This document shows, one piece after another, positions 26,800 to 33,390 of a DNA stretch of 33,390 nucleotides. The notes beneath the pieces were generated by a model that saw nothing but the letters and a program-made list of their open reading frames with translations, was not told the DNA's origin and ran no database searches. The DNA is from Bradyrhizobiaceae bacterium (GTDB taxonomy: Bacteria; Pseudomonadota; Alphaproteobacteria; Rhizobiales; Xanthobacteraceae), in assembly GCA_947479905.1 (NCBI GenBank), contig CANKBJ010000023.1:1-33390 (forward strand). Direction: 5' to 3'. Numbering within the stretch: position 1 is the stretch's first letter; the number at the start of each line of letters is the position of its first letter. The translations under genes and the position numbers were made by a program.

Positions 26800-29578
<2,779 letters not shown>

Positions 29579-29801: not shown

Positions 29802-30701
29802 CTATGCCGGCTTGCGGTTCCATATCGGGCTCGGCGGATTAGGCGCCAGCGAGCGCGGGTCGCGCGCCAGCCAGCGGCCGGCCTCGACGCGGCCCAGAAA
29901 GTCCGCGACGACGGCGTTGAAGAGGTCCGGTTCTTCCAGATTGACCACATGGCCGGTCTTGGGAAACATCACCAGACCGGAAGCGGCAATCGCGCTCTTC
30001 AAGAACAGGCTCGATTCAATGCAGCGCTCGTCCTCGTCGCCGACGACGATCAGCGCCGGGATCGTCAGCTTGCGGATCGCGTCCTCGAAGTCGAGCAGCG
30101 ACGGCCGCGACCCTTGAAAGCCGCGCGATGTGTTGGCCGAACCGCGCGCATCGTGCTCGGCGAAACGCGCCAAGAATTCGGCAAAGCCGCGCGGGTCCTT
30201 GATCTCGAACGGAACGCGGCTCGGACCGCGACCGTAAGTGTCGGCAACGCGCGCCGAGCCTTCGCTCTCGAACAGGTCGGCGACCGCGCGCGAACTCTTG
30301 TGATGCTCAGCGACATAATCGCGCTCGAAGCCCGAGCCGGTACCGGCCAGCACCAGAGAACGCACGCGTGCGGGATGATTGAGCGCGACTTGCAAGGCGG
30401 TGTAGCCGCCCATCGACAGGCCAATCAAATGCGCCTTGTCGATTTTCAGATGATCGAGCACGGCGACGCAATCGCGCATCACATGCAGGTAGGAATAGGC
30501 GGTCGGATCGCTCGGCACGTCCGACGGCGTATAGCCGCGCGCGGAATAGGTGATGCAGCGATGGCGCTTGCCGAACTCGCGCATCTGCGGCTCCCAGCCG
30601 CGGTAGTCGGCGGCGAATTCATGCACGAACAGGATCGGCGTCCCCTTGCCGGCTTCTTCGTAGTAGAGCTTCACGTTGTCGGCTGTCGTTGCGTAGGGCA
30701 T
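29802..30701 (-). CDS. Alpha/beta-fold hydrolase
   Basis: This is a soluble alpha/beta hydrolase of 299 residues. The nucleophile is Ser96 in HLIGLSMGGYTAL; the likely acid is Asp222 or Asp224 in VVGDEDERC and the base His251 in FPKTGHVVNLEEP; the oxyanion strand is ILFVHEFAADYRGWEPQ. It resembles the 3-oxoadipate enol-lactonase/C-C hydrolase group, but the substrate cannot be read. The start at 30701 has GAGGAA about 7 bases ahead. It lies downstream of the GS-like ligase and Rieske oxygenase genes on the same strand, separated by a palindromic repeat, so a shared catabolic role is plausible. The C-terminal 30 residues are Pro/Arg-rich (DPRSLAPNPPSPIWNRKPA). Confidence 0.88.
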   Translation of the reverse strand: MPYATTADNVKLYYEEAGKGTPILFVHEFAADYRGWEPQMREFGKRHRCITYSARGYTPSDVPSDPTAYSYLHVMRDCVAVLDHLKIDKAHLIGLSMGGYTALQVALNHPARVRSLVLAGTGSGFERDYVAEHHKSSRAVADLFESEGSARVADTYGRGPSRVPFEIKDPRGFAEFLARFAEHDARGSANTSRGFQGSRPSLLDFEDAIRKLTIPALIVVGDEDERCIESSLFLKSAIAASGLVMFPKTGHVVNLEEPDLFNAVVADFLGRVEAGRWLARDPRSLAPNPPSPIWNRKPA

Positions 30702-30718
30702 TGGGCAATTCCTCACTC

Positions 30719-30821
30719 GTCATTCCGGGGCGAGGCCGAAGGCCGAGAACCCGGAATCCAGACACATCAACCATCCTCTGGATTCCGGGTTCGCTCGCAA
30801 GTGCTCGCGCCCCGGAATGAC
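30719..30821. repeat. Nested palindromic repeat between hydrolase and ligase genes
   Basis: The outer arms GTCATTCCGGGGCG (30719-30732) and its perfect complement at 30808-30821 enclose inner arms AACCCGGAATCCAGA (30748-30762) and TCTGGATTCCGGGTT (30777-30791), also perfect. The whole 103-bp element could form a double-stemmed cruciform. It ends 3 bases before the stop codon of the GS-like gene and begins 17 bases before the hydrolase start, so it fills the whole spacer of two same-strand genes. Confidence 0.85.
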
Positions 30822-30824
30822 GGA

Positions 30825-32306
30825 TCAAAACAAATCCAGATATTCTTTCTGTTCCCAGGCGGTGACGGCGGTTGGATCGTCCGTCTCGTTCGCATCCTTC
30901 TTGTAGCGCGCGAACTCGGCGTCCTTGATGTGCGCGTAATAATCGACGAAAGCGCCGCCGAAACCGGCGCGGAAGGCGTCGTCGGCGCGCAACGCGGTGG
31001 TGGCTTCGCTCAGGGATTTCGGCAGCAAGGCCGCGTCCATCTCGTAGGGCGTATCGGCTGACGGCCCCGGCTCGCTGCGTCTGGCGATACCGTCGAGCCC
31101 GGCATAGATTTGCGACGCCATATAGAGATAAGGGTTGGCGGCCGGTTCGCCGACGCGGTTTTCAAGATGAGTCGCAGCATCGCCCGGCTGGCCCATCAGG
31201 CGCATCATTACGCCGCGATTGTCGCGGCCCCAGATAGCGCGGTCGGGCGCGAGCGAATAGGAACGGTAACGCTTGTAGCCGTTGATCGTCGGCGTGGTGA
31301 AGGCGGCCGCCGCGCACGCGTGGTTGAGAACGCCGCCGAGATAGTAACGGCCGAGCGTGGACAGTCCGTCCGGATCGGCGAAGGCGTTGCGTCCGGATTT
31401 TGTCTCGATCAGCGACTGATGCAGGTGCCAGCCGCTCGATACGATATTCGGCATAGACGGACGGCACATGAAACTCGCAAGGTAACCGTTGCGGCGTGCG
31501 ATCTGCTTCACCGCCGAGCGAAAAAGAATCATCGTGTCGGCGGCGTCCATGCCGATCTGCGGGCGGAAGGTGAACTCGACCTGGCTCGGGCCGATTTCAA
31601 TTTCGACCGAGCGCAGCGGCAGGCCGAGCGCCAGCAATCCGCGCCGCAAGATCTCGATTGCCGGATCGAGCATGTCGAAACGCGATTCGGTCAGATACTG
31701 ATAGCCTTGCGTCAGCAGGCTGACCTCGGGCGCTTCCGGCGGCCAGGTGGCCTCGGCCGGCGCAAGGCGCGGGTTGTCGAGCTTGAACAGGTGGAATTCC
31801 ACCTCCAGCCCTGCCATGAAATCGAATCCGGCTTTGCCGAGCGTCGTCAAAGCGTTGCGATAGATCGCCCGGGTCGAAAATGGCACCGGTCTACCATTGC
31901 TGAAGACGATGTCGCACAGAACCCAGCCGGTGTTGGCGGCCCACGGCAAAACGCGAAATGTCGTCGGGTCGGCGACCATGACGAAGTCGGCGCCGCCCTG
32001 CATTTCTTCCATGCCGAAGCCGCCGCCGGCGGTGAAAACCGGAAACACGCTTTTGTGCGACGTATCCTTGGCGAGCAAGGTTGTCGTCATGGTGACGCCG
32101 TTGCGCAACGCGCCGGCGACTTCCGACGCCAACAGCGTCTTGCCGCGCAACACGCCGTGCTGATCGGCGAAAGAGAAACGCACGACTTCGAGTTTGTCGC
32201 GCTTGATCGCGCGGTCGATCTCGGCCGCTGCTTTTTCTTGGCGCGAGGTCCACAGATTGTGACGCTCGACGAAGCTGGCGGGCGATTTTCGTTTGGGCGG
32301 CGCCAT
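30825..32306 (-). CDS. Glutamine synthetase family protein (gamma-glutamyl ligase-like)
   Basis: The protein belongs to the GlnA fold family but not to housekeeping GlnA. Its 493 residues read FSFADQHGVLRGKTL (N-terminal beta-grasp), then GLEVEFHLF, EIEIGPSQVEFTF, SGWHLHQSL and LENRVGEPAANPYLYMAS, which retain metal- and glutamate-binding positions. GlnA's highly conserved NRSASIRIP-like segment reads GRDNRGVMMRL, as in divergent paralogues such as PuuA-type enzymes. Such enzymes often glutamylate an amine (polyamine, aniline). It lies 112 bp after a Rieske oxygenase gene on the same strand, reminiscent of but not the same as aniline dioxygenase clusters. The start is the ATG at 32306; no good ribosome site is seen, and a TTG precedes it. 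Confidence 0.87.
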   Translation of the reverse strand: MAPPKRKSPASFVERHNLWTSRQEKAAAEIDRAIKRDKLEVVRFSFADQHGVLRGKTLLASEVAGALRNGVTMTTTLLAKDTSHKSVFPVFTAGGGFGMEEMQGGADFVMVADPTTFRVLPWAANTGWVLCDIVFSNGRPVPFSTRAIYRNALTTLGKAGFDFMAGLEVEFHLFKLDNPRLAPAEATWPPEAPEVSLLTQGYQYLTESRFDMLDPAIEILRRGLLALGLPLRSVEIEIGPSQVEFTFRPQIGMDAADTMILFRSAVKQIARRNGYLASFMCRPSMPNIVSSGWHLHQSLIETKSGRNAFADPDGLSTLGRYYLGGVLNHACAAAAFTTPTINGYKRYRSYSLAPDRAIWGRDNRGVMMRLMGQPGDAATHLENRVGEPAANPYLYMASQIYAGLDGIARRSEPGPSADTPYEMDAALLPKSLSEATTALRADDAFRAGFGGAFVDYYAHIKDAEFARYKKDANETDDPTAVTAWEQKEYLDLF

Positions 32307-32313
32307 CAAGCAC

Positions 32314-32400
32314 CGTCATGCCCGGGCTTGACCCGGGCATCCACGTCTTGCTTTTCGGAGTTGAAAGACGTGGATGGCCGGGTCAAGCCCGGCCATGACG
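32314..32400. repeat. 36-bp near-perfect inverted repeat in the oxygenase-ligase spacer
   Basis: The arms at 32314-32349 and 32365-32400 match in 34 of 36 positions around a 15-base loop. The unpaired positions fall in the CCCGGG-type inner blocks. This occupies most of the 112-bp spacer between the Rieske oxygenase and the GS-like gene, leaving only 7 bases before the ligase start. It shares the GTCATG..CCGGG core style of the other repeats here. No U-run follows on the minus strand. Confidence 0.85.
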
Positions 32401-32418
32401 AGGATGGGGATTTTGCGC

Positions 32419-33390
32419 TCATCCCTCGCTCTTCCAACTCATCGTCGCGCGCTTTTTGGCCTCGGTCGTCTGCCAGTAGCCTTGCCAGTCATTCGTCGGG
32501 CCGATGCCGTCAATGGCGGCGGGCCCGGTGATGGATGCCGCGCGCGCCGCATCGACGACGAGGATGGGCGTCTCGCCTTTGCCGGTTTGTTCAATCGATT
32601 GCCGCAGCAGCCGGCGATAGGCGGCGATCGCCTTGTCCGAGGTGCCGAGATGTTCCTCTGTGCGATCCTGGATCGCACCCATCGACTCGCAGGCCCACTG
32701 GTCATGCACGTTGATGTCGGCGCCCATGCCGGTATAGGTCTCGTGCTCCTGCTCGTGCGGATCGAAACCGTAATCGTTGTTTTTGTTCTTGTTCGGGATG
32801 TAGTCGGGCAGTTGATAAAGTTCGAGACGCTGGTTGCGCATCTGCTCCTTGTTCACCGGCTCGCCGAACGAGGTGAAGATCGCGTACCAATAATGCTTGT
32901 GATCGTCGATCGGCACGTGCCACTGCGAGATCGTCATCTCGCGGCTCATCGGGATCATGAAGGCATTGGGGAACACCAGATTGGTGACGCGCACATGCGT
33001 CGAGGCGTCGCTGATCTGGCGCAAGGTCACCAGCCGGAAGCCGTAATCGGTATCCTCCACTTCGATGCGCGGCCGCGTTACCTCGCGCATGATCTGCGTC
33101 ATCGGCATGTCCGAATCGCGCGTCGTATCGCGAAACATCTTGCCATAGGCCTGCGCCGGATCTTCGTCGTGAAAAAAACGATGCAGGAACGAGGTGTGCA
33201 CCGGGTCGATGCCGACCTCGAGCGATTGCAGCCAGTTGCAATCGATCATGCCCTTGAACGCGAAGGTGTGGCTGTCGGGCGCGACGAAGCAATCGAAATG
33301 CGGAAAGGCCGGCGGCTCACCATCGCCGAGAAAAGCGAACAGGATGCCGCTCTTCTCTATCACCGGGTAGGATTTCTGTTTGATGTTGGC
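32419..33390 (-). CDS. Rieske-type aromatic ring-hydroxylating oxygenase alpha subunit, C-terminal part
   Basis: This is the catalytic C-terminal domain of a non-heme iron oxygenase; the N-terminal Rieske [2Fe-2S] domain lies beyond the window. The frame is open to base 33390, giving 323 residues of an expected 430 or so, and starts ANIKQKSYPVIEKSG. CNWLQSLEVGIDPVHTSFLH has the HxxxxH iron pair (His65 and His70 of the partial) with bridging Asp62. Further on, NVHDQWACESMGAIQDRTEEHLGTSD gives the third ligand Asp230 and the phthalate-dioxygenase-like EHLGTSD signature. It would need a reductase, not visible here. The substrate is unknown. It is first in a run with the GS-like ligase and alpha/beta hydrolase. 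Confidence 0.9.
   Translation of the reverse strand, partial: ANIKQKSYPVIEKSGILFAFLGDGEPPAFPHFDCFVAPDSHTFAFKGMIDCNWLQSLEVGIDPVHTSFLHRFFHDEDPAQAYGKMFRDTTRDSDMPMTQIMREVTRPRIEVEDTDYGFRLVTLRQISDASTHVRVTNLVFPNAFMIPMSREMTISQWHVPIDDHKHYWYAIFTSFGEPVNKEQMRNQRLELYQLPDYIPNKNKNNDYGFDPHEQEHETYTGMGADINVHDQWACESMGAIQDRTEEHLGTSDKAIAAYRRLLRQSIEQTGKGETPILVVDAARAASITGPAAIDGIGPTNDWQGYWQTTEAKKRATMSWKSEG

Follow-up and report, generated by a model that had tools for sequence, protein, structure and literature searches.

The closest described systems act on aromatic amines in two steps. In the passages of the NpaA1 report cited here, NpaA1 is an aromatic-amine gamma-glutamyl synthetase, and a Rieske dioxygenase is shown biochemically to oxidise the glutamylated 1-naphthylamine (PMC11335346). 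In the sad system of Hydrogenophaga, an oxygenase and a glutamine-synthetase-like component act on sulfanilate, and in the cited part of that work the authors suggest an unnamed natural look-alike of sulfanilate as the original substrate (PMC5632844). The two components of Hydrogenophaga PBC are SadA (WP_009515254.1) and SadB (WP_009515256.1). Here we analyze a related locus at the end of a 33,390-nucleotide stretch of DNA (contig CANKBJ010000023.1 of the Bradyrhizobiaceae assembly GCA_947479905.1), the whole of which we call the window. The last 3.6 kb contain three minus-strand genes, in the reading order oxygenase, ligase, hydrolase. An earlier note on this DNA had described them as an uncharacterised module, and the open reading frames (ORFs) together with Pfam matches confirm a Rieske oxygenase, a glutamine-synthetase-like ligase and an alpha/beta hydrolase at this place. 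We suggest that the oxygenase and the ligase probably constitute a SadA/SadB-like two-step entry system for some anionic aromatic amine. The most useful new points are a signature in the entry loop of the ligase and the arguments in favor of 4-aminobenzoate being the natural substrate.

The ligase gene (30825..32306, minus strand) encodes a predicted gamma-glutamyl-amine ligase of 493 residues, counted from the ATG at 32306. Pfam recognizes a Gln-synt_C domain (253 bits), and all five matched NCBIfam models for glutamine synthetase or PuuA score below their cut-offs, among them GlnA (210, cut-off 429), type III (217, cut-off 470) and PuuA (213, cut-off 650). The closest PDB chain is NpaA1 itself (8wwu, 453 bits), with the next structure at 173; the identity is 43.7% to NpaA1 and 48.5% to the TdnQ-type enzyme of Delftia pLME1. 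As in GoaS-type enzymes, a glutamine synthetase catalytic domain is present outside the type I, type III and PuuA equivalogs, an acidic pair is found at E236/E238, and the entry loop aligns to that of NpaA1 without gaps, with different residues. With an enzyme that glutamylates aromatic amines as its nearest solved relative, the ligase lends good support to the logic predicted in the earlier note, in which the amine would be activated before oxygenation as in aniline degradation.

In a midpoint-rooted ligase tree, one clade of 56 rows (support 99) unites the window sequence with the Bradyrhizobium copies and that of Novosphingobium resinovorum SA1, apart from a group made up of the TdnQ-type, NpaA1 and Sphingobium YBL2 enzymes. 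Strain SA1 is listed as a sulfanilic acid degrader in the cited part of PMC6167471. The groups of the oxygenase tree are broadly similar. For both trees, only every sixth locus of the Bradyrhizobium range (L036-L084) was kept, and proteins shorter than 400 residues were excluded. Two further observations concern related ligases. Six of the 43 genomes of the window's genus (G784, G782, G785, G770, G747 and G760) carry a second paralogue, 46-47% identical to the window ligase. On a Streptomyces tendae plasmid (L165:7998-11198), a related ligase without the lysine described below has a carbon-nitrogen hydrolase and an amidotransferase as neighbors; the annotated genes of this 17-kb stretch, whose gene table is incomplete, include no Rieske oxygenase, and nothing there matches the window oxygenase. 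It is possibly a different use of amine glutamylation.

The window ligase can be compared with NpaA1 at the amine-binding site. According to the cited passages on the NpaA1 structure, E232 and E234 form the acidic amine-binding pair, the ring of the amine packs on a loop contributed by the adjacent subunit, F75 being one of the contacts, and the N-terminal entry loop is part of the '15th motif', V68-M81 (PMC11335346). By alignment, E236 and E238 of the window ligase (codons 31596..31604, minus strand) correspond to the acidic pair. The entry loop instead carries a cationic motif, K81-D-T-S-H85-K86 in P0001 numbering (codons 32052..32069, minus strand), which places a lysine at the position of the ring-contacting Phe75. 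The aromatic bottleneck of the NpaA1/AtdA1 subgroup, which acts on uncharged anilines and naphthylamines, consists of F75, F86 and a Trp at 235 (in AtdA1, at 81) and is absent: the window residues are K81, F92, I239 and S87, and only F86 is kept. Because a cationic patch takes the place of the ring-packing phenylalanine, a substrate with an acid group, an anionic aromatic amine, is predicted.

The lysine is found at this position in 162 of 183 aligned homologues, the window included; the other 21 have F (11), L (7), M (1), V (1) or H (1). Of the 162 Lys-type rows, 154 have His at position 79 and 154 have Lys or Arg at position 80. All 162 retain the acidic pair, as do 20 of the 21 others, the exception being L237, with Asp at 232. 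Whether a ligase is of the Lys type also separates its neighbors. A phthalate-type oxygenase is present in 153 of the 161 Lys-type loci other than the window, adjacent and on the same strand in 150, and in 0 of the 21 non-Lys loci. Five of the eight Lys-type loci that lack the oxygenase are at contig ends (L033, L034, L055, L077 and L144) and in a sixth, L129, the contig ends 2.6 kb upstream; the remaining two, L163 and L204, come from one genome (G331), in which no oxygenase occurs within the 18.5-kb locus. Genome G399 carries both kinds of ligase, and only its Lys-type copy adjoins a phthalate-type oxygenase. These counts take in all aligned rows, four of which contain X, and the rows are not independent: many are close relatives, with 34 Lys-type and 13 other representatives at 70% identity. 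L163 and L204 are one G331 gene retrieved twice, L089 and L133 are identical, and L206 is L010 by its coordinates; others of L206-L212 are probably duplicates too. An earlier two-group residue comparison had left L154, L163 and L165 out of both groups.

The oxygenase ORF (32419..33390, minus strand) has no upstream stop within the window, and it encodes the catalytic domain and the C-terminus, residues 115-437 of 437. This part matches LigXa_C (Pfam, 111 bits) and lacks the Rieske [2Fe-2S] domain, which is found past the window end on contig C246 (L009:3532-3873, plus strand). C246 and the window end share 149 identical bases, and the joined gene encodes 437 residues. The sequence of the joined protein shows CPHRG...CAFHGW as the Rieske motif and NWLQSLEVGIDPVHTSFLH as the motif for iron binding. 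A contiguous orthologue in L011, 98% identical, contains both Rieske (Pfam, 68 bits) and LigXa_C, which confirms the join. The Rieske cysteines and histidines, the mononuclear iron ligands and the LigXa_C domain are thus all present, and no beta-subunit gene adjoins. The oxygenase is therefore of the phthalate-dioxygenase type named in the earlier note, unlike the two-subunit aniline type, and resembles the phthalate dioxygenase/LigXa-type enzymes in having a single alpha subunit with Rieske and LigXa_C domains. It differs in its distance from the solved structures, scoring just 213-225 bits against its PDB relatives 9ina, 7fjl and 7fhr; 7fhr is named phthalate 4,5-dioxygenase, and the other two only Rieske domain protein.

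The oxygenase and the ligase are a conserved unit, with a linkage far beyond chance. Among 80 loci of named genomes that carry the ligase, the oxygenase lies directly upstream in 76, and the other four end at a contig edge. In a class-wide sample of 29 loci, 24 have it within the 1.5-kb flank, and it is present in 43 of 45 further loci, some of which are the same genes as in the other sets. A lack of conserved linkage, the outcome that the earlier note named as refuting its reading, was looked for and not found. A search that started from the oxygenase listed at least 13 plasmid records in which the match spans almost the entire protein at 50% identity or more. Each of the 13 has the ligase as well: by coordinates the pair is directly adjacent in ten, and within 7 kb in Palleronia, Pseudooceanicola and Nitratireductor. 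Among the plasmid matches listed, identity drops from 50% to 40% between this clade and the next relatives. At E ≤ 1e-120, the ligase itself has a match in 30 of the 43 genomes that belong to the window's genus and in 20 of 398 genomes from across the phylum. At E ≤ 1e-100, 34 of the 385 genomes in a class-wide sample have one, and at least two of those 34 have copies outside the Lys type. We considered the possibility that the two genes are neighbors without a shared pathway, the ligase serving a polyamine or ammonia and the oxygenase acting alone. Adjacency was the only original evidence of a connection, and the ligase does weakly match several glutamine synthetase models; those matches all stay under their cut-offs, however, and the same-strand adjacency in 150 of 161 loci and the clean split between Lys and non-Lys types by oxygenase presence make this explanation very unlikely.

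The proposed entry system would work as follows. In the first step, by homology, the ligase would use ATP and glutamate to convert the amine into its gamma-glutamyl amide; E236/E238 would bind the amino group, and the entry-loop residues K81 and H85/K86, specific to the clade, would face a carboxylate or sulfonate. In the second, the Rieske oxygenase would dihydroxylate the ring at the carbon bearing the nitrogen and at its neighbor, releasing the gamma-glutamyl group and forming a catechol. With 4-aminobenzoate, the route would run through gamma-glutamyl-4-aminobenzoate to protocatechuate, to be channelled into the beta-ketoadipate pathway, whose genes lie elsewhere in the genome. A pcaH gene (371 bits, cut-off 296) is present on contig C5; from their Pfam dioxygenase, thiolase and CoA-transferase domains, the genes beside it are taken to be pcaG, F, J and I. 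The pcaD gene is on contig C164 (310 bits, cut-off 256).

Such an oxygenase would receive electrons from a donor encoded away from the pair. No ferredoxin or reductase gene is recognized beside it, in the window end or in the 3.5 kb upstream. Some relatives do have them, with a 2Fe-2S ferredoxin and a flavin adenine dinucleotide (FAD) reductase beside the pair in 9 of 119 loci each; in Polaromonas, Caballeronia and Cupriavidus these genes follow right after the pair. Three ferredoxin homologues are encoded in the window genome, and the two closest are 53% and 49% identical. The one on contig C34, which adjoins an oxidoreductase of the pyridine-nucleotide-disulphide type, may be a candidate together with that enzyme; the one on C81 has no obvious redox partner by eye. 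A dedicated reductase was also sought: the best match to the Polaromonas enzyme is on contig C97, in what appears by eye to be a nitrate/nitrite-assimilation operon, and it was rejected, no Reductase_C domain being found in the genome.

The isolation of the window operon, which adjoins gyrB with no regulator, transporter or redox partner recognized beside it, raises the question of whether the pair is catabolic. It could instead detoxify or salvage, for example, an amine-bearing secondary metabolite, with the oxygenase demethylating or monooxygenating the glutamylated compound and no deamination of the ring. The LigXa_C family includes O-demethylases, LigXa being one. We consider such a role improbable, as the closest functional analogues, NpaA and Sad, are catabolic deaminating dioxygenations, and as pca genes, PnbB and PcaR-type regulators next to the pair in some relatives speak against it.

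These same neighbors bear on the substrate. In L140 the genes run oxygenase, ligase, pcaH, a lyase and pcaDC, with pcaG and pcaB matches within that run; in Palleronia (L166), pcaB, D, G, H and C lie beside the ligase; and in L150, pcaHG are 8-9 kb from the pair. The pcaDC query also matched in other loci (7 of 119 in all, and 3 of 11 aniline-type), but only the L140 match is real; the other nine, at 24-36% identity, were not counted. PnbB, an enzyme that yields protocatechuate, is found in L120, L123 and L132. Of 119 loci, 62 match a regulator of the PcaR/PcaU/PobR type (56 with identities of 45% or above, six below 40%), versus 0 of 11 aniline-type loci; the assignment is based on a Methylobacterium nodulans protein that scores 298 bits against a cut-off of 285. 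Protocatechuate genes, PnbB and this regulator beside the pair in some relatives thus point to a conversion of 4-aminobenzoate to protocatechuate. No paper listed in a literature search of open-licence papers was presented as describing a 4-aminobenzoate pathway with this pair. Taking these clues together with the loop, we regard 4-aminobenzoate as the best candidate for the native substrate, at about even odds.

The mechanism could be the same with another native anionic amine: sulfanilate, 3- or 2-aminobenzoate, aminosalicylate or 4-aminophenylacetate. The window pair has the same two components as sad, whose substrate is sulfanilate; the Lys/His/Lys patch would suit any acid group; and the SA1 plasmid copy of the pair is 2 kb from a maleylacetate reductase. 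Bradyrhizobium carries the pair, and a sulfanilate-degrading Bradyrhizobium is reported in the title of Hayase 2016. On the other hand, the pair adjoins gyrB and the ligase occurs in most genomes of the genus (30 of 43), which makes a synthetic chemical unlikely as the original substrate; in the cited part of their work, the sad authors argue likewise for a natural original substrate in Hydrogenophaga (PMC5632844). The pcaDC of L140 and PnbB elsewhere also favor a carboxylated ring that is processed at the level of protocatechuate. A different anionic amine is accordingly possible, but on the unlikely side. Two side observations concern the neighborhoods. About 8.5 kb from the pair on the SA1 plasmid pSA3, folP, for dihydropteroate synthase, lies amid transposase genes (L189:25768-26598); FolP uses 4-aminobenzoate. 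In four distant loci (L122:9569-9910, L148:9982-10329, L166:9400-9753 and L169:7362-7700), the next gene after the ligase encodes a small protein similar to 5-carboxymethyl-2-hydroxymuconate isomerase, the Pfam match having been tested for L148 only.

Several points weigh against a Sad-like entry system for 4-aminobenzoate. Clear pca genes are close by in just 3 of 119 loci (a fourth, L151, has a weak pcaH match), and PnbB is likewise in only 3 of 119. The PcaR/PcaU/PobR-type regulator is matched in 5 of the 26 window-type loci (L010-L035) and is not recognized in the 3.5 kb upstream of the window operon. In Bradyrhizobium, the pair has a benzoate-CoA ligase nearby (with an identity of 60% or above in 42 loci), along with its regulator and, by eye, a Liv-type transporter, neighbors that give no pointer to protocatechuate. 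The trees conflict in places: the Nitratireductor oxygenase groups with Methylobacterium, and its ligase does not. A ferredoxin reductase of the Reductase_C type is not found in the genome, which is 86.85% complete. The contact between K81 and the acid group of the substrate is a prediction from the NpaA1 alignment, and the likeness to Sad is drawn from the description of its components and, indirectly, from the SA1 clade.

The association at the level of whole genomes is suggestive only. Among the 385 genomes across the class, pcaH is over its cut-off in 21 of 34 ligase-positive genomes versus 51 of 351 others. The control hmgA, an aromatic gene unrelated to this pathway, is found in 15 of 34 versus 35 of 351, an odds ratio of 7.1 versus 9.5 for pcaH. 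When the genomes are split by hmgA, the link with pcaH survives in both strata (odds ratios 21 and 4.4), with kinship among the genomes ignored, and the 34 positives, defined by any match at E ≤ 1e-100, include at least two genomes with non-Lys copies. Because the hmgA control is nearly equal to pcaH, the case for the substrate rests on the physical neighbors and the loop motif.

The third gene of the run (29802..30701, minus strand) encodes an alpha/beta hydrolase (Abhydrolase_1, Pfam, 91.5 bits). It had been counted as part of the module, which the comparison does not bear out: 13 of 130 loci carry it, as do 14 of the further set of 45, and in L021, L035 and L078 it is elsewhere in the neighborhood of the pair. 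The hydrolase is a local accessory in part of the group, outside the conserved core. Its best NCBIfam match is the 3-oxoadipate enol-lactonase PcaD (TIGR02427); we rejected this role, as the score of 117 bits is under the cut-off of 256 and another gene of the genome, the pcaD on C164, scores 310.

The ORFs were first called at 33390..32419 for the oxygenase, 32309..30825 for the ligase and 30716..29802 for the hydrolase. The starts of the latter two were moved to the ATG codons at 32306 and 30701 because close relatives begin at equivalent codons; the original ligase start, a TTG at 32309, is one codon upstream. Downstream of the run, gyrB (27149-29578) is on the opposite strand. The earlier note had proposed extending the sequence beyond 33390 in search of a reductase, amidotransferase or transporter, genes that some relatives do have; in the 3.5 kb upstream (L009, contig C246), none was recognized. 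This region encodes a PfkB-type kinase, a 329-residue frame, a beta-lactamase-superfamily protein and a 121-residue frame, the 329- and 121-residue frames having no Pfam match.

Each junction of the window operon contains a palindromic repeat: one of 87 bp between the oxygenase and the ligase (32314..32400) and one of 105 bp between the ligase and the hydrolase (30718..30822). They belong to two different families, both multicopy in the genome, and are predicted to form very stable RNA hairpins (-68.7 and -70.2 kcal/mol, respectively). In L010-L012, the closest relatives, the genes abut or overlap instead, with three bases between the oxygenase and the ligase and the ligase stop overlapping the hydrolase start (TAATG). 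A third, different palindrome occupies the oxygenase-ligase junction in L014 (L014:1768-1950). The junctions of this operon look like favored landing sites.

In broader terms, the pair may represent a large family, proteobacterial as sampled, in which the ancestral function is the aerobic breakdown of 4-aminobenzoate to protocatechuate via gamma-glutamyl-4-aminobenzoate, the K-D-T-S-H-[K/R] loop of the ligase is a specificity signature for acidic aromatic amines, and sulfanilate degradation was recruited from it; we put this forward tentatively, as a model somewhat short of even confidence. If true, a single motif would suffice to distinguish, in any genome, glutamylating enzymes of the aniline type from those of the aminobenzoate type. 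The pairing, the loop signature and the protocatechuate-linked neighborhoods point to one candidate, 4-aminobenzoate, for the unnamed natural substrate of sad. The model would also supply a gene basis for the breakdown by soil bacteria of this building block of folate (pABA), and would sharpen the annotation of genes that records name only 'glutamine synthetase family protein' next to 'ring-hydroxylating dioxygenase'.

How, then, does the locus compare with the systems described at the outset? With NpaA1, AtdA1 and TdnQ and their npa, atd and tdn dioxygenases, as described in the cited passages, it shares the ligase family, the acidic amine-binding pair, the entry loop and a Rieske partner (PMC11335346). 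It differs in the lysine that replaces the ring-contacting Phe75, in an oxygenase of the single-subunit phthalate type rather than alpha/beta, and in the gene order, the oxygenase preceding the ligase. The npa/atd/tdn layout, with an alpha/beta dioxygenase, an AtdA2-like amidotransferase and a reductase, is not recognized in the window end or the 3.5 kb upstream. With the Sad-type 4-aminobenzenesulfonate 3,4-dioxygenase system it shares an oxygenase gene paired with a glutamine-synthetase-like gene, and the sulfanilate degrader SA1 falls in the window ligase clade; it differs in the extra hydrolase and in the absence of recognized ferredoxin or reductase genes beside the pair. The earlier note had suggested a possibly undescribed pathway for an aromatic amine or amide. 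The amine logic stands, but 'undescribed' does not: sulfanilate-degrading Hydrogenophaga has both components, sadA and sadB, and the strategy of glutamylating and then oxygenating is already known for the dye chemical sulfanilate. The window pair would share the principle of SadAB and the aniline systems, but it is not of the aniline type. It is best compared with the Sad-type pair, from which it differs in having no recognized ferredoxin or reductase genes beside it.

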